DNA of 25,359 nt. Origin: a virus. Made by a program: the position numbers and the translations under genes. Location of the stretch: positions 545 to 25,903 of IMG/VR virus record IMGVR_UViG_3300030109_000679; one strand, given 5' to 3'. The notes under the pieces are model-generated. The model saw nothing but the letters and a program-made list of their open reading frames with translations. It had not been told where the DNA came from and made no database searches. Positions 1,705-23,578 of the stretch are shown here, piece by piece; the first letter of the stretch is position 1, and each line of letters begins with the position of its first letter.

Positions 1705-3210
1705 CTAACTGTTGGCAATTCCGTACACGCGCACTGTGCCTGAGGTGATATTTCCCGATTCATTTTTTATTTGAAAAGCATCGTCGTCGGTTGCGCTGCC
1801 GACGTATCCGCCGCCCACTAAAGACGCTGCCGTGTTTGATCCGTCGCCCATTTTCATAAATGACGCAAAATTAACATGAGTTCTGACCGCTGAATTCGTC
1901 GGACTGTGGATATACATATAGCCACTCAGGCCACCATCAGCGGCGGTGCTGCTAACCGCGAGCGCCAAACGTATCGAACTGTCGCCGGTTGACTCTGAGT
2001 TGCCGTCGCCTGAGGGGCCAACATAAAAATGTTTTATGTTGTAAACATAAGATGATCCAGTGACGAACGAGCTACCGTTGTCGGTCGAAAACAACATAAC
2101 GAACTCGGTGTTGTTGCTTGCGGGAAGAAGGTTCGCAAACGTCACAAAATACGAGTTGTAAGTGTCGGTGAGCGTTGAAGCGATGTCGATACTTGCGCTG
2201 TTACTTGCCGTTACAGTCGTGATGTGAACGAGCGACCCGCCCGCCGCAGTTTGGAAAGTTGGCGCTGCGCCAGCGCCGTTTGAGGTAAGAACTTGGTTTG
2301 CAGAGCCAGTGCTGACGTATGCTGGATTACCGCTCGTATCAAACGAAATCAGGTTCCCATCGGTCCCCGAAGCCATTTTAGCCAAAGTCACTGCGTCGTC
2401 CGCGATCTTGGCGGAGCTCACTGCGTCGTCCGCGATCATTGCGGTAGTCACTGTGCTGTATGCAAGCGCACCGCTGGCGTTTGTGTTCAGCACCGTGCTG
2501 TTGCTACCTTTAGCAAGGCGCTCGACGGCACTAGCACCGCGCACAATAATATCGTGCTGTGTTGTCGTGGGATCATCGAGATCCCCCGCCGGGCCTTGCG
2601 CCCCGGTATTTCCCGTGACCACGCCCAACGCGAGCGCGCCTGTCGTGGTGTTAAAGCTGGCTGTCGGTGTGCCGCCAGCACTGACAGCCGACACGCTGAC
2701 TGTGTTGACGCGGCCGGTGGTCGCCTCCAGGGTGTTGCCGTCTGAGCTAAATCCTAACAGTTTCGACGCGCGCGTACTGGCGTCGTCAACGAATTCAGGC
2801 GTTGTAATGCTGTTGGTTTTGGAAACCTTGAACGAGCGGTCAAGCTCTTCCTGAATACCCTGGGCAATAAATGTCAGGCGGTCCAAGCCGTCCTCGTGGC
2901 TGTCGGCTGGGAAGGGATCATTCTCGACGTAGTCTGTGCCCTGTGTCAGCGTAAGCTTGCGACGTATGACAACCGTCTCTCCGCTCGCCGGTGTGTTGCC
3001 GGTAGTAAACGTGACCGTACCGCCAGAATCGTTGCCGGCACCGGCAACCGTGTAATGAGTGGTAAGCGTCTTCGTTGTCTCAGCGCCGGTCGACGCACGT
3101 ATGATAACCTCAAGGTCGGCGTCTGCGAAGATTTTGAACCCATACGCAAACGCTGTCGTAGATCCGTTACCTGAGTGACTGTTTTTCGTCGTAGTGCTTG
3201 AGACGCTCAT
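1705..3210 (-). CDS. Tail fibre protein, T7 gp17-like N terminus (501 aa)
   Basis: This is a host-recognition fibre attached to the tail. The first 130 or so residues follow the T7-type fibre N-terminal domain that binds the tail: a Gly/Ser/Thr-rich start, FAYGFKIF, TVTFTTGNTPASGETVVIRR, DGLDRLTF and IQEELDRSFK. A short linker with a collagen-like GNTGAQGPAG patch follows (about residue 200). Next is a repeat region built on IADDAV (about 255-285), and then a beta-rich C-terminal receptor-binding part of a type frequent in marine phages. The start overlaps the upstream virion gene as ATGA. The protein is shorter than T7 gp17 (about 550 aa), and no DGR variable region or chaperone autocleavage motif was seen. 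Confidence 0.88.
   Translation of the reverse strand: MSVSSTTTKNSHSGNGSTTAFAYGFKIFADADLEVIIRASTGAETTKTLTTHYTVAGAGNDSGGTVTFTTGNTPASGETVVIRRKLTLTQGTDYVENDPFPADSHEDGLDRLTFIAQGIQEELDRSFKVSKTNSITTPEFVDDASTRASKLLGFSSDGNTLEATTGRVNTVSVSAVSAGGTPTASFNTTTGALALGVVTGNTGAQGPAGDLDDPTTTQHDIIVRGASAVERLAKGSNSTVLNTNASGALAYSTVTTAMIADDAVSSAKIADDAVTLAKMASGTDGNLISFDTSGNPAYVSTGSANQVLTSNGAGAAPTFQTAAGGSLVHITTVTASNSASIDIASTLTDTYNSYFVTFANLLPASNNTEFVMLFSTDNGSSFVTGSSYVYNIKHFYVGPSGDGNSESTGDSSIRLALAVSSTAADGGLSGYMYIHSPTNSAVRTHVNFASFMKMGDGSNTAASLVGGGYVGSATDDDAFQIKNESGNITSGTVRVYGIANS
2389..2448. repeat. Two tandem 30-bp units inside the tail fibre gene
   Basis: CACTGCGTCGTCCGCGATC occurs at 2389-2407 and again at 2419-2437, exactly 30 bp apart. 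A truncated third start, CACTG, follows at 2449. Each unit encodes ten residues containing IADDAV. The repeat falls in the shaft-like linker before the C-terminal head and is in frame, so gain or loss of a unit would lengthen or shorten the fibre without breaking it. Confidence 0.85.
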
Positions 3211-6200
3211 CGCCGCAGCCTTCCTTGATTAGACATTTGCGTTTTCACCATTTGCATATCCCCGTATGCCTTGCGGATGTTTTCGTACTCCGGTCGCGAC
3301 AACATCACCGGCAATGCGGACTCGTAAAACCGATCCTCAATGTCGCGTATCGCGGTGAATCTTTCTTTGTCGGTCATGCTCGCGTACTCGACTGAAGAGA
3401 TCATTCGCCCCAGCGCTTGGTTAAAGTTTTCAACCTCGCCGGCGGGCGATACCAATTGAACCAAGTTCTTTGCAGTGTTCGTCCACTGCGCCGCAAAAGC
3501 GTCAGGAAACGCAAACCCCTTTTCTTTATTGCGGGTTTCACGCAGCGGACCTTTCAGGCGCATTTGCTCACGCTGTAAAGCGGTTGGCGCCTCGCCTTTT
3601 TTGATCGTGAACGGTATCGCTGTGTTCCAGACTGCCATGACTGGGTTAACGTCGAAGCGGACGTTTATCTCTTTTGGCTTGCCGAAAACGTCGTATCGAA
3701 TTGCGCTCGTCTCATCGTCAGCACCGCCGAATATTTCTCGATCGCTGACCAGCGCCCCCCACTTGGACATGGCGTCATCAAACATTGCGCCGGCGCCGCC
3801 TTTGAGGCGACCAACCATCTCATACCGCGGTTCGCTTTTGCCATCGCCCAAATCTTTGAACGGCACGATGTCTGGATCTTGAACGTCGGCGATCGTGAAG
3901 TATTGCGGCGCCTTGCCGACTGCTCGGCGAGACGTTGGGTCTGCCACGCGCTCACCCGCGCGGATAGCAGAGCTGTACGGCAAGAAGCTTTGCAGCGGAG
4001 AGCTTGCCAGGTACGACATATCTGCGCGGCGTATCGATGTCTCAATATCACCGAGCGTTTTTAACATTGGCATGTCGGTGATGTAGTCAACTGCGCTCGC
4101 CGCGGCAGCGCTTGCCAACGATATCGCCATTTGTGGATTGTTGGTGCGCCGCATGCGCTCAGCGGTGTTCGCAGCAATCCCAAAGACGGCACCAATTGGC
4201 TCAAGGCCGGCATAGCTCACATATGTGAGCGGTCCATTCGGTATGCCTGTCGCGACATCGTACATCGGAAGCGGATCGCCTTCGGAATCGACCGGGAAAC
4301 CGTCGCCGCGAAAGACGAACGAATACGGCTGCCAACCAGGCGGAAGCATCTCCCGCTGCCGTTGGTCATTTGGCATGGCTCCGGTCAGACGCCCGTTCAC
4401 CGCATGCTGGTACACGGTATACATGACGCCCCAGCCCATCATTGCGCGCGCAACAGCGCGCTGCCTTTTGGCTGGGTCTTTCGTCAGGGCCCCCAAGGGC
4501 AGCACGCGCTCCATAAATTTCAGAATTGAGTTCGTCGGCGCAACAACGAACGGCATGACCATTTTCCCGAGAAACGGGACTTCTTGTAATTTACGAGCCA
4601 ACTGTCCAACCGCACCAAGGTCGCTCGTCATCGTGTTATAACGCGCTGCGTCGTCGAGCTGCCCAGCGAACGACCGCGGATCCAAAATGCTCATCGCAAA
4701 ATTATCGAAAGCTTCCTCGTCGGTTTTACCGAGCGCCTTCGCGCGCATTGCTTGAGCATACGCTTCTGCATACAGCTCGCCGCGTTGACTTCCTACGCGC
4801 CAGAAATCATCGGCCGCCATAAGTGCGCGACCTGGCATTCTGATGGCGCGGCCAAGCGCATCTACGTGCTGCCCTGCTTTGCCGCTAATATTTAAATTCT
4901 CAGCATCGATCGATCGGAGCTGCGCGCCCTCAATCTTATTCATCGCGTCAGCCGGCGATTCATTTTTAAATGTACGCCCTGCTACTATGAGCGCATCGCT
5001 TAGCATGGTTGACATGCCTAACACGCGAGCCACGGCTTGCCCTGCGAACACGCCTTCCTCTTGACCTTTAGCGCCGAGCGCTCTGCGCGTGGCGCGCTCA
5101 ATGCCGCCAAGCGTGCCGGCAATCAATTCCTCCGGTATCTGCCAAGCCATGAATAGTGGCGTAGCGACGAAGTTCTTGATGTGTGTTTTCGTCCAGCTCA
5201 GCAACCCGTTAATATATATCTCGCCGAAAACGCCGTTGGCTTTTGCCATAAATCCTTTGAAGGCATATTTATGCAGTGCGGCAGAACCGCCTTCTGCTTG
5301 TGCTTGCAATATGCCCTTAGCAAGCTTGATGGCTTCACCCTGTCCGCCTGTCGCTTTTAACAAATCCAAAGCAGCATCCGCTTGCAGCTCAGGCGTGCGC
5401 GCACTCGCCGGGATATTGAAAGCTTGCAGCGCGCGTGCAATTTCGGTCTGAGCTGCCTTGGTCTGCATCTGGATGCCGGCGTGGATCGCCATTTGCCGGC
5501 GGAACTGCACAAGGAATTGCGGCGATTGATTACCGTCTCGTATCTGTGTCGCCATCTCGGTAAGGCGCTCGCCACTCTTTACGAGCAATTGCCGCGCAGC
5601 CAGCATGTCGGATGCGTTTAACAATTCGCCGGTTTGACGCTTTAGCAATTTACGCGTGAAGCCCAGCTCGTCAGCAAGCGCTTGCTCCGCAGCTTCTTGC
5701 GTCATCTCTTTCTTTTGCACGCCACGCTTGGCCGCCTCGATCGGATCGGCGTACAGCTCGCTGGTGTAGTTGAACATCGCTTTAACGTCGTCGCCGGTTT
5801 CGATGCGATCAAAGTTAAAATCGACGCCTTCACTGCCAGCGCGCACTAAGTCATCAACGCGGCTCGGCTGTATTGCTTCCACGCCACCCATAGCGTCAAT
5901 TTCGGTCACAGGAGGTTTCTGCGGATCGCCGGCGCGCGGCGTCATGTTCTCATTGCTCACGCCGTACAGACCCTCGCGCGCTTGCCTCACAACGTCTGCC
6001 GCTGCCTGTGCTTCGACAGCTTCTAGAGCTTCGTTGCCTCTGATCGCTGCCGCTGCATTGCCGTCTGCTTCACTGAATCGACGCTGACCTTCTTCGGATA
6101 ACAGCTCGCGCGCTTGGTCTTGTTGCCTTGTCGCGTACTCACCAGGTTGCAGCAAGCTTTCTTCGACAGAGGTTGGCATGCGCCCATCTTCGATCTTGCC

Positions 6201-16115: not shown

Positions 16116-17393
16116 TTACTCGTTGCAGGCGATTTCAACGACTTTGTCTTCCTGCATCCTGGTCGCTCCAAACGTCGAGCAGTAGTAGACCTGATGACTA
16201 TATGACTTGTCGCTGCGCTGATCGATGCGAGCCATAACGTCTTTGCCGATCGCCAGCTTGCAGCCATCCTGCGCCCATGCATAGCAGAGGCGAGAAGTGC
16301 CGTCGTCGCTGAGACGGTTAGAGACGATGAACTCGAATCCAACAAACGTGTTAATGTCACCTTGAACCAGTGCTTTCCGTCACACTTCGGGTTTCCCCGC
16401 CAGCTTTCGCTGTTCGTGCGCTGGACTTTCTCTTCGTCTACTAGAGACGCCGCCCGTCAAGTCTCTACACCTTCCGCTTTCGCGGCTTGGCTCGGGATCA
16501 GCATGTAAAAGCCTTCCCCGAATTTGAGCGGTTTTCAACTAATCGTCGCCGACTAGTTAGGCGAATCCACCGTGTTAAAATCACTGGAAGTGACAGTCGT
16601 GTTGTTGAGCAGATCTTCGATCTGTTCAGGTGATACAACAATGTATCGCTTGATTGACGGATCGACCGACTGGGCATCCAAGAGCTTCTTGGCTGTGACC
16701 AATTTTGCAATCGTCAATCCGGCAGAACCGTGTGCGATTTTCTGACCAGATGGGAAAGACGTAGATGTCGTTCCATCTTTGCCAGTCTTCGCAGTTCCAC
16801 CGAGTGCATCGATGATGACATCATCCTGCGCTCTTCCGATTGCCGCGGCTGCGGCGCGAGCATAAGAAGATGTCGGATCGATCAACATGCGGACCTTGTC
16901 CGCGTCGTCAATCAAGTCAGCCCACTCGTAAGTGGTTAAGCTAACCTGTCGCCGAGAGTGCTTTCTGTTATGGCGATCGCTAATCGCCTCTCCGATTCCT
17001 CGGAGTGTCGGACCATATCATCACCTCATAGAGGTGCGCTGCGCTTCGGGACGGCTTCGTCCCTACTCCTTTCGGATGGCCTCTGAACCTTCCGCGATTG
17101 CGGCTTGGATGCTGATTACCCGTTCTGGGTTTCCAGCAATTCACAGCGTTTGCATGCAACGTCGCCGCTGCATGGCCCCACTAATGTAAAGGCGTCTCGA
17201 CGAGTGGCGTGTCTCCGTGCCGACTGGTACGGGCGATCGCCGCTGCCTCTCCGATTTGATCGAAAAAGGCCTTTTCACCAGTGACGCTTTCAACGTCAAC
17301 GGCGCCTCGCAACAGACTTCCCATCTGCTGCGAGAGCATTTCGACGTTCGATGAAAACTGGTTCACGAACGCCGTAGTGACCTGGGTACTCAT
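16116..17393 (-). CDS. Major capsid protein, three exons split by two group I introns: join of 17393-17190, 16960-16569, 16377-16116 (285 aa)
   Basis: This is the shell protein. Exon 1 gives residues 1-68 (MSTQVTTAFVNQF to TPLVETP). Exon 2 gives about 69-199 (HSRRQVSLTTYEWADL ... TVTSSDFNT). Exon 3 gives the rest (KALVQGDINTFVGFEF ... KVVEIACNE, stop TAA at 16116-16118). Exon lengths 204 + 392 + 262 = 858 nt, exactly 286 codons. Both junctions restore motifs typical of T7/BPP-1-like podoviral capsid proteins (VETP-HSRRQVSL and FNTV-KALVQG). Without splicing, translation from exon 1 stops at TAG 17183-17181, and exon 2 reading runs into TAG at 16555-16553. AGGAG lies about 9 nt before the ATG at 17393. 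Length is a little below the common 300-350 aa. The exon boundaries come from frame, conserved motifs and intron helices, not from RNA data. Confidence 0.93.
16378..16568 (-). ncRNA. Group I intron 2 in the capsid gene (191 nt, IC3/Azoarcus-like, no ORF)
   Basis: This is a self-splicing RNA. P1 is GGTG-GATT-CGCC, with the last exon base T (16569) paired to G in the internal guide, the diagnostic U-G pair. AACTAGTC pairs with GATTAGTT as P2. P4 is TCGGG with CCCGA, in the string AAATTCGGGGAAGG ... CCCGAGCCAAGCC. P6 is CCGC-GAAA-GCGG, directly followed by GAAGGTGTAGAGACT, the P3/P7 strand seen nearly unchanged in small bacterial tRNA introns such as that of Azoarcus. AGTCC closes P7. Two GAAA-capped hairpins follow (CAGC-GAAA-GCTG and CGGG-GAAA-CCCG), and the intron ends in G (16378). 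There is no room for an endonuclease ORF. Confidence 0.93.
16961..17189 (-). ncRNA. Group I intron 1 in the capsid gene (229 nt, no ORF)
   Basis: The 5' exon ends GCCT, which pairs with GGGC in the intron (T17190 to G) to form P1. Core strings follow: AATTGCTGGAAACCC ... GGGTAATCAGCATCCAAGCC gives P4 (TGCTG with CAGCA) and P5 (CCC with GGG). CCGC-AATC-GCGG is P6. AAGGTTCAGAGGCCA and ATGATATGGTCCGA supply P3/P7 (GGCCA with TGGTC). Peripheral hairpins GGGACG/CGTCCC, CACCTC/GAGGTG, CTCCGA/TCGGAG and GGCGAT/ATCGCC fill the rest. The last base is G (16961). It is distinct in sequence from intron 2, so the two are not a recent duplication. Subgroup not assigned. Confidence 0.93.
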
Positions 17394-17472: not shown

Positions 17473-17642
17473 TACTCCGCCTTGCTCACAGGCTTGCGCC
17501 GGGGGGCCTTGGAAGGCTTGTCCTCGGATTTCACGAACTCCAAATAACGCTCTGCGAGCATCACGGGATCGTTTACTGTGCGCGCGCTGCCGAACTCAAC
17601 GGCCAGGCGCAGGCATTCTAATTTAATCTCCTTTTCATCCAT
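17472..17642 (-). CDS. Small conserved-position protein between scaffold and capsid genes (56 aa)
   Basis: The function is unknown. The protein begins MDEKEIKLECLRLAVEFG, a predicted amphipathic helix. It continues with PVMLAERYLEFVKSED and ends in a basic, Pro/Lys-rich tail (PSKAPRRKPVSKAE). Short proteins with this helix pattern often lie next to the scaffold gene in podoviruses and may assist head assembly, but I know of no proven role. I prefer the ATG at 17642, overlapping the scaffold stop by 8 nt, to the GTG at 17654. Neither has a clear ribosome site, so translation probably depends on coupling to the scaffold gene. Confidence 0.7.
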   Translation of the reverse strand: MDEKEIKLECLRLAVEFGSARTVNDPVMLAERYLEFVKSEDKPSKAPRRKPVSKAE

Positions 17643-18438
17643 CGAGTTGCTCACGCAGTCTCAAGACCTCGTTCACCATTCGATCGTGATCGGGATGCAT
17701 TCGCTCCCAATACGGCGAGCCCTTTTGCGATAGCTGACTGATGCGCGCCTGGATGTCTGTCTCGCTCAGTCCTGGCCGACTGTCGCGGCCGGCGAGCCCG
17801 TCTTCGCTAATCTCGCTGTTGATGTAATCGGTGACGCGTACAAAGAACTGAATGAATTCTAAATTGTCACCGAGCGCACTGCCGTCTGCCATCCGCATTT
17901 CAGTCAGGTCGGGCGCGTTCATCTCCTTCAGAAGCACATTGGTGGCTTCCATTTTGTCCTCAAAGTCAGCGCCGTACTCGCCGCGCAGCTCTGCTTCAAT
18001 TGATTCGCGTTGCGTGTCTAGTTGTGCCTCTGTTTGCTGTAGCGCGCCGCCAGTAAATTCTTGATACGCTTCCGCAATCATTGCTGCCTGGCGTCCAGAT
18101 AAACCCGACTTGTGTGCCGCTTCCCGAAACCAGTCTGTGAATTCTTCGTTGGCGTCTTCGCCCAGACTAAACTCGTATTCCCCTGGATCCTGTGGGCGTC
18201 CCAGTTTGTTGTAAACCAGATCCCAGTCCTCGTCCGTCGCCCAGCTCCCCGGCACCGCCAGCTTTTCGGCGCCTACCATTTTTTGGGCGTTTATATAGGA
18301 CTTCGCCATCCCTTCGACGCTTCCAATGTGCTGGAGCGACGGGTCGGATTGCAATTCCGTAGGTAAACTTGACTTCCAATCGTCAGACGGTGCTTCCCCG
18401 GCTTCTACCGGAGCAACCGCTCCCTGCTCTTCGGACAC
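17635..18438 (-). CDS. Scaffolding / capsid assembly protein (267 aa)
   Basis: This acidic, helical protein guides procapsid assembly and is removed before packaging. The N-terminal part carries WKSSLPTELQSDPSLQHIGSVEGMAKSYINAQKMVG (residues about 22-57), a pattern typical of podoviral scaffolds. LAVPGSWATDEDWDLVYNKLGRPQDPGEYEF follows. The C-terminal third ends with charged helices (HPDHDRMVNEVLRLREQLDG), where scaffolds usually contact the coat protein. GTG is the start, with AAGGAG 7 nt upstream. That site lies inside the end of the Bbp19-like gene. The order portal, small gene, scaffold, capsid is as expected. Confidence 0.9.
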   Translation of the reverse strand: MSEEQGAVAPVEAGEAPSDDWKSSLPTELQSDPSLQHIGSVEGMAKSYINAQKMVGAEKLAVPGSWATDEDWDLVYNKLGRPQDPGEYEFSLGEDANEEFTDWFREAAHKSGLSGRQAAMIAEAYQEFTGGALQQTEAQLDTQRESIEAELRGEYGADFEDKMEATNVLLKEMNAPDLTEMRMADGSALGDNLEFIQFFVRVTDYINSEISEDGLAGRDSRPGLSETDIQARISQLSQKGSPYWERMHPDHDRMVNEVLRLREQLDG

Positions 18439-18439
18439 T

Positions 18440-18634
18440 TCACTTCTCCTTCAATGTTGCGTGAATAAATAAAACAACGTCCCTCTGTCCTTCGCGGAAC
18501 GCCGTCTCGTTGCTGTCTGGAACGTAGCTCGTGCGCCATAGTCCAAACCTCTTTTCCATATCTTCTAAGACTTGCTTGCCGTCGTCGCTTCCGAAGACCG
18601 ACTTATAGGTTGCCTTGAGTTCTTTAGGCGTCAC
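18440..18634 (-). CDS. Bbp19-like small phage protein (64 aa)
   Basis: The sequence TYKSVFGSDDGKQVLEDMEKRFG, then SNETAFREGQRDVVLFIHATL, matches the Bbp19-type pattern 'F..vFgt.dGk.vL.dL...' and 'fREGqR.Vvl.I'. The type member is from Bordetella phage BPP-1, where the gene also lies by the portal and scaffold genes. The function is not known; a head assembly role is inferred from constant synteny. GTG start in a GTGA overlap with the portal gene, and 1 bp before the scaffold gene, so the three are translationally linked. Confidence 0.82.
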   Translation of the reverse strand: MTPKELKATYKSVFGSDDGKQVLEDMEKRFGLWRTSYVPDSNETAFREGQRDVVLFIHATLKEK

Positions 18635-20268
18635 GCCGGTATCGCCTCGATCGTTTCCAAGCCGCCTTCGCGCAGCTCTTTAATGGCTGGCGCAGCCTGT
18701 CCCGCGGCTTGCGCAGTTTGTTGCATCATCGCCATCTCTTGCTGTTGTGCTTGCTGTTGCGCACGCTGTTCGCGCAGCTCGGCCACCTCCGCATCGCCAC
18801 GCGTTACAACCGCCGGCGTGCCCGTCACCTTGATGACATGGCGAGCGAGCCCGTCCATATCGAGGAAGTCGACAACACCTGGATCCAGCTCCATCAGTGG
18901 CGCCAGGAATTCAAACATCTGCATGACGGCCTGTACGTCGCCGCTCCGCTGTGCCTTCGCCAGCGGGCTCACATACTCGATGTCGATGTCGCCGCCGCTG
19001 AGACTTTCGGGTGGCGGCACAAATTTCTTTTGACGCGACAGGATCGCGAAACAGCGATTGATCAGCGGCTGAAGTAGCTCGGCTTGTAGTCGGCCCAGGA
19101 CCGGACCCAGCAAGCGCATTTTTTCCTCAGTGCGCTGTATGACTTCTGTCGCTGTCATCTGGGGGCCCTGCCCCAGGATGAGCTGATCAACGTAGAACGC
19201 TGCGCGGATCGCCTGACGGCGCTGTTCTAATTGGTTTTCGCCAAGCGGATTATTCGAGCCAATGTTGAGCGGCTCAATGCGATCACGGGTGCCCGATCGA
19301 TAGAAGTTAATGCCGCCAGGTGTGGTTCTCACCGGAGCCATGAAACCATCATCCGGCACCATAAGAGGCGGATGTATCTGGAGCTGGGCCGCGCGGATCA
19401 CAACCTCGCTCATCTTGTTGACCATCTTCGTATCGCTAAGCGCGGTCATGCTCGGCGATCGGCCGTAGCCAATCTCGAAAGAGCCCTTCAAAAACCTCGG
19501 TACACAATATGCGAATTCCTGGTAGCCGCTTTCGCCCAGGATCATCTTCTCTTCGGCGTCCATATAAATAGACGCGAAGGGCATATTGAGCGTGTTCTTC
19601 TTTCGCCGATTGTAGTCGTCTCTCGGCATGACAATGTGCAGCAACTCAATCTCAGCGTATGGGTCTTCTGTAAATAATTTCGATATGCGTTGTGTGACCT
19701 GTTGCTCGCCGAATTGCCGCACCGCTGCGCGCGCTGTCGTCTTGTATTTACGAAATACAGTATCGACGCGCCCATCCTCGTCTTCCGAAACGTAACACTC
19801 CGCTATGTGGCGGGCGCTAAACCGGAAACCATTATTCTTGTCGTCCTCGATGAATATGACGGCAGTGCCAAACGTCACGAGATCCGCGTACAGCTCGTGT
19901 ATCTGTTCCTGAAAGTTACTGCGCGCCAGGTGCTGGTACATGACCAGGGTGGCGCCTTCCAGCCACTCCTTAGCCTCGTCGTCGCCGTTGAAGCTGTCGT
20001 CCTCATATCGCAGGGAGAACCACGGCGCTGCCGCGTTCGTCAGCATGCCGTGCAGACTGGCTGCCATCAGCTCAGCCGCATGTATGGCAGTGCCGTCGAA
20101 GATCAGCTCTGAACGCTTGTCGCCGGCAGTGCGCTTCTTCGTTATATCCGCCTTGCGCGGTATGACGAAGTCAGCGACCTCCTGCCAGTGCGACTCCCAA
20201 TGCGAGCGCTGTTGCTGCAATGTTGTGTAGCGTTTTATCAACGCTTCAGCGCGTGGATCAGCTTCCAT
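18631..20268 (-). CDS. Head-tail connector / portal protein, T7 gp8-like (545 aa)
   Basis: The portal forms the twelve-subunit ring through which DNA enters and leaves the head. The N-terminal part has RYTTLQQQRSHWESHWQEVADFVIPR (about residues 14-39), DGTAIHAAELMAASLHGMLTNAAAPWF (about 58-84), and later GSFEIGYGRSPSM and VDQLILGQGPQMTATEVIQRTEEKMRLLGPVLGRLQ (about 363-398). All are hallmarks of T7 gp8-type connectors. The C terminus has a Gln/Ala-rich helical tail (EQRAQQQAQQQEMAMMQQ, about 501-518), usual for the crown or barrel. Length matches T7 gp8 (536 aa). It starts at ATG 1 bp after the preceding gene. Confidence 0.95.
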   Translation of the reverse strand: MEADPRAEALIKRYTTLQQQRSHWESHWQEVADFVIPRKADITKKRTAGDKRSELIFDGTAIHAAELMAASLHGMLTNAAAPWFSLRYEDDSFNGDDEAKEWLEGATLVMYQHLARSNFQEQIHELYADLVTFGTAVIFIEDDKNNGFRFSARHIAECYVSEDEDGRVDTVFRKYKTTARAAVRQFGEQQVTQRISKLFTEDPYAEIELLHIVMPRDDYNRRKKNTLNMPFASIYMDAEEKMILGESGYQEFAYCVPRFLKGSFEIGYGRSPSMTALSDTKMVNKMSEVVIRAAQLQIHPPLMVPDDGFMAPVRTTPGGINFYRSGTRDRIEPLNIGSNNPLGENQLEQRRQAIRAAFYVDQLILGQGPQMTATEVIQRTEEKMRLLGPVLGRLQAELLQPLINRCFAILSRQKKFVPPPESLSGGDIDIEYVSPLAKAQRSGDVQAVMQMFEFLAPLMELDPGVVDFLDMDGLARHVIKVTGTPAVVTRGDAEVAELREQRAQQQAQQQEMAMMQQTAQAAGQAAPAIKELREGGLETIEAIPA

Positions 20269-20269
20269 A

Positions 20270-20488
20270 CTATTGACCTAAGAGCGTTTTCTTTGTGCTT
20301 GGCGTTTCGGTCAGCACACCAGTGCCGCCCGTCAAAATTGACGCCTGTGTGCCGCGCTTCTTTCGCACCCGTTGCTCAACCCGCTCTTGTTCCTTGGTGT
20401 CCTTCGGTTTGATAGGTGGATCGGGGGGGACGGGCGGAATTGGCGGCGGGGGCGGCGGACTCGGCGGCGAAGGACTCAGGAAACCCAT
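20270..20488 (-). CDS. Small proline-rich protein upstream of the portal gene (72 aa)
   Basis: Residues 5-28 are almost all Pro and Ser, including seven consecutive Pro-type positions within PSPPSPPPPPPIPPVPP. A charged helix follows (DTKEQERVEQRVRKKRG) and then ASILTGGTGVLTETPSTKKTLLGQ. The end pattern 'ILTGG.GV ... TKKTLLG' recurs in small proteins beside the portal gene of many podoviruses and related phages, with virion association reported for some. The function is unknown. The Pro run should slow ribosomes and depend on EF-P. It overlaps the GNAT gene's stop as TAATG and sits 1 bp before the portal gene. Confidence 0.78.
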   Translation of the reverse strand: MGFLSPSPPSPPPPPPIPPVPPDPPIKPKDTKEQERVEQRVRKKRGTQASILTGGTGVLTETPSTKKTLLGQ

Positions 20489-20940
20489 TACATATTCCTC
20501 TTCATTGTCGCGCCGGCATGTTCAAAACCAACGCGCGTCAACAAGTTCTCAAAAAGTCTCTGTTGCGTTTTTCCAAGTTGCGCAGCCGCCGACACGTAGA
20601 TCGACAAACACTCGCGTTGCCCTGCGAACTCGATTAGATGAGCGACCAGGCGGCGCGCCACCATCGATCGGCGCCCGGTCGGCCTTACCCAAAATTTTAA
20701 GAGACCGCAGAGCGGCTCTGTCCACATTTCATGTCCGACGACGGCACAGTAGGCGCCGAGTATCTCGTCGCCCTCTACGGCAACGATGGCTGACGCGGCG
20801 TCCCAGTGCATGTACGTGCGAAAGTACTCAGTCGCACGCTCTGCATTGAACGTGCCCTGAAAAGCACTCTCCCTTGTGCCTTCCTCTGTCATCGCCAGGA
20901 TTTGCGGAAGATCCGCATCCTCGGCCGGTCGAAGTATCAC
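20488..20940 (-). CDS. GNAT-family acetyltransferase between terminase and portal genes (150 aa)
   Basis: The N terminus MILRPAEDADLPQILAMTEEG is a standard GNAT beta-1/alpha-1. DEILGAYCAVVGHEM (about 58-72) matches beta strands 2-3. The acetyl-CoA loop region is VRPTGRRSMVARRLVAHLIEFA (about 85-106), with R-x-x-G-x-R/S-like features. YVSAAAQLGKTQQRLFENLLTRVGFEHAGA (about 114-143) is the last helix and strand. Substrate unknown. It is encoded with the packaging genes in several podoviruses, so a virion or DNA-packaging partner is possible. GTG start in a GTGA overlap with the terminase gene. Confidence 0.83.
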   Translation of the reverse strand: MILRPAEDADLPQILAMTEEGTRESAFQGTFNAERATEYFRTYMHWDAASAIVAVEGDEILGAYCAVVGHEMWTEPLCGLLKFWVRPTGRRSMVARRLVAHLIEFAGQRECLSIYVSAAAQLGKTQQRLFENLLTRVGFEHAGATMKRNM

Positions 20941-22849: not shown

Positions 22850-23178
22850 TATTTAGGCCCTATAATTGTCTTTTTCTTTTTCAAGATGCGCCGCGCCTCA
22901 TCTGCCGTAATTGGTTTCATGTCTTTGTGCAGATTGATGTCGTAGGCGCGCAATCCCTCATGCGTTTCACGCGTGGGCCAACGAACACCGCTTTTAATGG
23001 CGCGCTTTGTTGCATCTTGCTGGTTGAGAATTTTGCCGTCCCAAACACTCGGTATAAGCGTCGGCACGCCATTGATATCTACCTGGCGCGTGAAAACAGT
23101 CGATAGGCTGCCGTCTTTGTTCTGCACGGCTTTGCCTTCCGCAATGTTTCGATAGTGATGCTCAAGAATAGGGTCCAT
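22849..23178 (-). CDS. Conserved phage domain protein (109 aa)
   Basis: The central part reads NKDGSLSTVFTRQVDINGVPTLIPSVWDGKILNQQDATKRAIKSG (about 20-64), ending with HEGLRAYDINLHKDM. This is a recurrent phage domain with the pattern 'v.N.DGS.STv......d..g...LIPtv..dG..ls..eA'. It also occurs inside large virion proteins of other phages and often ends in 'A...a..lH...'. Here it stands alone with a basic tail (ILKKKKTI). The function is unknown. ATG overlaps the HNH gene stop by one base. Confidence 0.75.
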   Translation of the reverse strand: MDPILEHHYRNIAEGKAVQNKDGSLSTVFTRQVDINGVPTLIPSVWDGKILNQQDATKRAIKSGVRWPTRETHEGLRAYDINLHKDMKPITADEARRILKKKKTIIGPK

Positions 23179-23396
23179 TATTTTCGTTTGCGCGCTAGAT
23201 TGGCGGCGCGCGACATGGCGCGAAGGTTGCTCGGCCGGTTGTCGAGGGCGTTGCCATTTTTGTGGTCTACGTCCTGGCCGTCGCCTTTTTTCACGCGCCC
23301 CTTTTTCATAAGGCTGTAGCGGGCGCGATTGCGGGCGGCGCGCTTCTTTTTACGCTCGCCGGTTTCGCGGGCGTATTCTGCTTTGTAGTTTCTCAT
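23178..23396 (-). CDS. Small HNH endonuclease (72 aa)
   Basis: This compact, very basic protein has its HNH core at residues 42-62. DVDHKNGNALDNRPSNLRAM supplies the DH pair, the N in NGNALDN, and the NL end of the beta-beta-alpha metal finger. HNH proteins near terminase genes can take part in packaging (as HK97 gp74 does), but small stand-alone ones also act as homing enzymes. The lack of zinc-finger Cys pairs and the size favour a short nuclease of the homing or DNA-nicking kind. I use ATG 23396. The longer frame to 23510 runs through hairpins and G-tracts and looks non-coding. No clear ribosome site was seen. Confidence 0.83.
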   Translation of the reverse strand: MRNYKAEYARETGERKKKRAARNRARYSLMKKGRVKKGDGQDVDHKNGNALDNRPSNLRAMSRAANLARKRK

Positions 23397-23488
23397 GGCA
23401 GGGACAGAGCCTGTGAGCCTCAGTTGTGGACGTATTATTGTATTAGAACCCTGCGCCGCATTTCTTTGGGGGGTGGGGGGTCCGTTCG

Positions 23489-23506
23489 CCGAAAATAAAT
23501 TTTCGG
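23489..23506. other. Perfect short hairpin CCGAAAAT-AA-ATTTTCGG
   Basis: Two 8-nt arms with a 2-base centre lie in the 224-bp gap between the small terminase and HNH genes. No T tract follows on either strand, so it is unlikely to be a terminator. Next to it (23468-23480) are two runs of six G separated by one T, and at 23523-23544 the tandem pair ATTGCGGGGAG / ATTGCGGGGAC. The gap has no convincing gene. Confidence 0.5.
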
Positions 23507-23578
23507 TCACACGATCGGCACAATTGCGGGGAGATTGCGGGGACTGCTGCCTAACCTATTGATATCATTGGCTTGACC

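Follow-up and report, generated by a model that had tools for sequence, protein, structure and literature searches.

The window, by which we mean the whole stretch of DNA analysed here, comprises 25,359 nt (positions 545–25,903 of the IMG/VR virus record IMGVR_UViG_3300030109_000679, from an uncultured phage of marine type) and contains a gene for a major capsid protein (MCP) that is located on the minus strand (17393–16116), an orientation absent from an earlier, sequence-only reading of this DNA. That reading had proposed two different group I introns in one capsid gene, and a splice-aware protein-to-DNA alignment yields three exons and exactly two introns, with the same lengths of 229 and 191 nt and the same junctions (Table 1). 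Likewise, removal of both intervals restores one frame of 858 nt (285 codons plus the stop), as had been anticipated, with exact joins in the motifs VETP-HSRRQVSL and FNTV-KALVQG.

Table 1. Features of the capsid gene and its surroundings (window coordinates)
Feature	Coordinates	Strand	Description	Basis
MCP exon 1	17190..17393	-	Residues 1-68, ends ...GAGACGCCU	Splice-aware alignment
Group I intron 1	16961..17189	-	229 nt, phase 0 after residue 68	
MCP exon 2	16569..16960	-	From residue 69 through two bases of codon 199; 3′ end ...AACACGGU	
Group I intron 2	16378..16568	-	191 nt, phase 2 after residue 198	
MCP exon 3 and stop codon	16116..16377	-	Restores KALVQGDINTFVGFEF...IACNE*	
Upstream neighbour, scaffold position	17635..18438	-	Unknown function	phrog_3742; phrog_458 protease match weak
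Portal (head-tail adaptor)	18631..20268	-		phrog_332, E 4.6e-159
Tail tubular proteins A and B, short-tailed phage module	12511..15575	-		phrog_394, phrog_376

Over residues 1–284, i.e., 284 of its 285 residues, the spliced protein has a match to phrog_3437 ('major head protein'; E 4.7e-95), and a sequence search of the PDB retrieved phage capsid proteins, the best of them 9eg4 (E 5.2e-12). Uninterrupted homologs show 93% amino acid identity in the IMG/VR loci L006–L008 and 67% in Pelagibacter phage HTVC010P. The gene order terminase, portal, scaffold-position gene, MCP and tail is also that of HTVC010P, in which the gene upstream of the MCP occupies the same place; the full-length match of the spliced protein, together with this order, identifies the product as an HTVC010P-type MCP (phrog_3437). 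Compared with L006, 137 of the 184 nucleotide differences fall at third codon positions and, on this comparison, the exons are under purifying selection. A separate intact capsid gene had been proposed as potential counter-evidence to the introns; no second intact MCP was found in the window, which lacks only 544 of the 25,903 bases of the record, itself possibly a fragment. With no intact copy in the record, synthesis of the shell protein would depend on splicing, as the sequence-only reading had maintained. A GNAT acetyltransferase-like gene (20488–20940, minus strand) lies between the portal and terminase genes.

Structure and boundaries of the two introns

A covariance search against Rfam RF00028, suggested earlier as a check, matched both intervals, intron 1 above the curated cut-off of 50 bits (68.7 bits, E 9.6e-16; match at 17198–16989) and intron 2 below it (40.6 bits, E 2.5e-7 over the window), with no match elsewhere in the 25 kb window (E 0.01). 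The identity of intron 2 was established through its homologs: we consider it real in spite of its low score because several introns from the same site pass the cut-off (50–84 bits) and because the lineage shows covariation. The latter was evaluated with 26 diverse introns of this site, including that of the window, and with a structure (RNAalifold structure plus P7 and P10) derived from the same alignment. Paired cells amounted to 98.6%, versus 27–47% in slid controls (n = 26 introns), a comparison that favours an alignment-derived structure over its slid versions; the stronger sign is the count of compensated pairs, with compensatory changes on both sides at 35 of the 56 pairs, P7 included. 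The covariation score was 0.464, against 0.144 (sd 0.009) for shuffles and 0.045–0.060 for the slid controls. Intron 2 from the window forms all 55 scorable consensus pairs, including P7 and P10, and keeps the terminal G. The core of intron 1 (P3-P8, P4-P6 and P7), whose site has three members only, is supported by the match to the RF00028 model.

Both introns end in G, and both 5′ exons end in a U that pairs with a guide G in P1. The guide of intron 1 (AGUG-GGGC) forms a P1 of 4 bp (GCCU/GGGC) and a P10 of 4 bp (CACU/AGUG), and that of intron 2 (UUC-GCC) forms a P1 of 3 bp only (GGU/GCC) plus a P10 (GAA/UUC). Across 84 distinct introns, P1 and P10 sum to at least 7 in 74%, versus 14% when the same introns are placed at random T-ending sites; however, among the 187 T-ending sites of the spliced gene, the scores of introns 1 and 2 from the window are reached at 15 and 56 sites, respectively. 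The P1/P10 pairings are therefore not unique for these two introns, and the placement of their junctions rests on protein homology and on the homologous introns. Immediately before the intron-2 site (nt 596), the sequence CGGU is present in 54 of 54 intron alleles and in 22 of 127 empty alleles, counts that carry no correction for kinship. In this same comparison, the Thr/Ser codon at site 596 ends in the synonymous G that pairs in P1 in all 54 intron alleles, against 22 of the 127 empty ones; co-conversion would also produce this fixation.

The first in-frame stop occurs 9 nt into intron 1 and 16 nt into intron 2, and between 2 and 55 nt (median 19) into each of the 84 distinct introns. Early in-frame stops in group I introns have been linked to the exclusion of ribosomes (PMC3984707), and those found here probably keep ribosomes off the ribozyme cores. 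Most of the alternative ends tried for intron 2 break the frame or lose the K of FNTVKALVQG. A version of 182 nt after CGCCU is in frame but inserts DSP, and a 191 nt intron shifted by one base leaves an identical protein but no U before the junction. An intein or translational bypass is ruled out by stops within 16 nt together with the covarying RNA.

Distribution and turnover of introns among relatives

We searched IMG/VR with residues 86–199 only, avoiding a bias towards uninterrupted genes, and 44 of the best 80 loci contain an interrupted MCP gene (32 with one intron, eight with two and four with three), a prevalence that applies to the closest relatives and not to the whole family. At the level of clusters of ~98% identity, these 80 loci contain an interrupted gene in 30 of 53 clusters. 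The arrangement had been called unusual in the sequence-only reading, which is wrong for this clade; introns in capsid and tail genes had, besides, already been published, as discussed below. A larger census comprised 229 loci, 175 of them distinct, and is enriched in introns because three of the scans used intron or junction patterns; with the window included in both figures, an intron occupies the intron-2 site in 49 distinct loci and the intron-1 site (nt 204), where L380 and L395 carry a near-same intron, in three. Three introns are present in each of eight genes of the census.

Across 20 loci selected to represent the insertion sites, 33 RF00028 matches pass the cut-off within the span of the MCP gene and, paired by hand with the site calls of the census, they correspond to 15 sites (nt 127, 150, 156, 158, 180, 190, 194, 195, 198, 204, 207, 251, 596, 772, and 816). 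Site 140 is a further one, on the basis of 86.5% identity to introns from site 596; the count leaves out sites 152, 191, 252 and 265, together with the call at 194 in L196, all of them with uncertain boundaries. A whole-record scan with RF00028 gave 18 matches in 15 of the 28 records with this MCP, many of which are fragments; 12 of these matches are confirmed in the MCP gene by intron coordinates and the other six fit there by offset, size or score. Introns are thus apparently confined to the MCP gene in these records. A diverged MCP locus, L355, contains two RF00028 matches whose insertion sites are not exactly placed.

The presence of an intron at site 596 is highly dynamic. In a FastTree phylogeny of 170 MCPs, from which the columns around this site were left out, its state changes about 20 times, at least 17 of them forced by well-supported branches. 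The clearest case is the pair L377 (with intron) and L384 (empty), which are 98.5% identical and in which nine of 13 differences concentrate within 58 nt around the site (nt 579–636), a clustering reached in none of 20,000 permutations; this is one clear instance of a co-conversion-like tract in the exon flank. The pair L435/L436 (99.1% identical) is weaker, with three of eight differences at nt 594–600 and the rest elsewhere, and the flanks of a second intron of L436, at site 190, are unchanged. Altogether, six close pairs differing at site 596, several of which share a member, show 40 of 171 differences in nt 560–640, compared to 102 of 1,292 in 40 pairs in which both alleles are empty. Such a pattern in the flanks would be expected of homing co-conversion or of plain recombination between co-infecting phages.

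Introns are 153–279 nt long and the longest open stretch in any of them, counted between stops and with no start required, is 92 aa; no ORF is evident in either intron of the window. We found no HNH (PF01844) or GIY-YIG (PF01541) domains in the 28 records, and HNH_3 (PF13392) in four of them, all intron-less. A small free-standing HNH_3 endonuclease gene also occurs in the window (23178–23510, minus strand), beside the small terminase gene. As candidates for an endonuclease acting in trans, the HNH_3 genes of the four intron-less records out of 28 and of the window are too few to conclude.

Introns from different sites of the MCP gene can be closely related, with 84–87% identity between those at sites 140, 158 and 194 and those at 596, between 150 and 156, and between 127 and 180. 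When matches at the same site are set aside, 57 of 79 introns are most similar to an intron at another MCP site rather than to any of a biased, pattern-limited pool of 213 loci that lack this MCP (scans with intron patterns supplied 206 of these). The match from outside the MCP is better at several sites (152, 198, 207 and 772 and, marginally, 204, the site of intron 1 in the window). These relationships suggest jumps inside the MCP gene plus arrivals from outside. The target sites of related introns share approximately three to four bases upstream of the splice point, which fits what reverse splicing needs, but splicing depends on the same pairing wherever an intron sits. Support for reverse splicing as a way of reaching new sites is circumstantial only and comes mainly from rDNA (PMC3984707).

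Interpretation and relation to known introns

We conclude, with little doubt, that each of the two intervals is a self-splicing group I intron with no endonuclease evident, and that the two lie in one and the same essential gene, that of the MCP. Within the late transcript, the RNA of each intron would fold into a core of P1-P10, P3-P8 and P4-P6, and an external guanosine would attack after the U of the U-G pair in P1 (after 17190 and 16569); the freed exon would then attack after the terminal G of the intron, joining the exons into one message for an MCP of 285 aa. At an occupied site, introns may pass from one co-infecting phage to another through DNA recombination with co-conversion of the flanking exon, with occasional arrivals at new sites of the same gene. 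The sequences show where the introns lie, the frame restored by their removal, the P1/P10 pairings, the covarying structure of the intron-2 lineage, the distribution among relatives and the repeated gain or loss; we infer the splicing itself, its efficiency and the agent that would cut or copy the DNA. The introns most plausibly represent near-neutral mobile elements. More tentatively, as a possibility that falls short of being probable, the MCP gene could be the one standing target, in this clade, of ribozymes without an endonuclease of their own, which would jump between short guide-matched sites within the gene in a manner resembling reverse splicing and then sweep through co-infecting phages by gene conversion, such that most lineages at any time would splice this gene one to three times.

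Explanations that dispense with one or both introns fare poorly. The source is a metagenomic virus record, and frameshifts or assembly errors in an environmental contig could have left a broken or chimeric gene; we give this virtually no credence, given that near-identical introns occupy the same sites in independent metagenomes (L380 and L395 for site 204, and 49 distinct loci for site 596) and that junctions and structure are precise. An assembly artefact is ruled out by the same introns in independent assemblies. Equally negligible is the idea that three separate exon products assemble into the shell without splicing: loci from phages HTVC120P and uvDeep1-GF2-KM23-C739 were indeed deposited as separate 'capsid protein' CDSs, but what lies between the exons is a conserved ribozyme RNA, which would unite them precisely in frame, and homologs without introns are one chain. 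Very unlikely, although slightly less so, is an active intron 1 accompanied by a decayed intron 2, such that the window genome would make no full-length MCP. The 40.6 bits of intron 2 relative to the cut-off of 50 could be taken as decay; against this, the copy in the window keeps its 55 scorable pairs, P7, P10 and the terminal G, homologs from the same site reach 50–84 bits, and the exons are under purifying selection.

The remaining alternative accepts the introns but holds that they are kept for a benefit to the phage, for example a delay of capsid synthesis until RNA folding or GTP conditions are suitable, or an edge over intron-less co-infecting phages. Every intron located in the 28 records lies in the MCP gene or fits there, about half of the relatives carry one, and intron alleles invariably use the codon that pairs in P1; additionally, an intron endonuclease contributes to competition between phages (PMC11620839) and introns have been proposed as switches (PMC11878797). 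We nonetheless find a benefit unlikely, since site 596 flips about 20 times and near-identical phages differ at it, as would a near-neutral mobile element, many relatives are intron-free, and endonucleases of the families searched were not found in most intron-bearing records.

Introns in capsid genes, as well as structural genes with several introns, are already known. A close precedent with experimental evidence is mycobacteriophage LittleE (Cluster J), with a major capsid intron whose splicing was documented by RT-PCR and N-terminal sequencing of virion protein (PMC3706429). As in the window, the intron is in the major capsid gene, the 5′ exon ends in U and the intron in G; LittleE, however, is a siphovirus with one intron of 819 bp containing a putative endonuclease, whereas the window, from a short-tailed phage, has two short introns with none evident. 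The same work describes a group I intron in a tail gene of BAKA (PMC3706429) and also cites Tuc2009 (PMC3706429). The tail tube gene orf142 of Staphylococcus phage Twort has three group I introns, with exon skipping (PMC11878797); it is likewise a structural gene with several group I introns, but, as far as described there, a single gene from Twortvirinae, whereas the clade studied here shows a pattern over 15 sites.

Two marine cases involve another capsid protein family and other insertion sites. The deep-sea uncultured phage Deep1-GF2-KM23-C739 (L003, KT997847.1) has a T7-like capsid gene with two short introns of the same type as intron 2 (2969–3149 and 3678–3858; RF00028, 78.0 and 76.9 bits), and the capsid gene of Pelagibacter phage HTVC120P (L002, MH598807.1) is split by a 200 nt element similar to intron 2 (2971–3170), below the RF00028 cut-off and recognised by similarity. 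Each of these records contains two separate capsid CDSs and no intron feature. Conversely, the introns of Bastillevirinae and Jug phages, with many endonucleases, are in genes for terminase, polymerase and nucleotide metabolism (PMC11878797, PMC12363816); they resemble ours in having several introns per gene, and those of Jug are also ~206 nt and partly confirmed by RNA reads, but those of the clade of the window are, within the records scanned, limited to the capsid gene. We found no publication on introns in HTVC010P-type MCP genes in the open-licence literature, and what appears to be new is how dense the introns are, how many sites they occupy and their restriction to the MCP.

In an environmental type of phage, a structural gene that is essential and as a rule very strongly expressed appears to be dependent on ribozymes, and the MCP gene, with introns in over half of the closest relatives, appears as a hotspot for mobile ribozymes that had gone unrecognised. 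The question has been raised of why introns in phages colonise only genes for DNA and nucleotide metabolism (PMC11878797), and this clade is a clear counter-example. In practice, gene callers split these genes, such that surveys based on capsid genes may miss or miscount these phages. The many sites, the empty alleles and the near-identical pairs with and without intron make the gain, loss and site-jumping of ribozymes directly testable, and the presence of related introns at multiple positions in a single phage gene offers a new test case for reverse splicing. A host search of the genome contigs retrieved only two distant MAG matches (51–52% identity), and no host was assigned. Klebsiella phages RCIP0099 (L001) and HF0522 (L004) also contain sequences similar to intron 1, that of HF0522 being located between two RNA polymerase CDSs.
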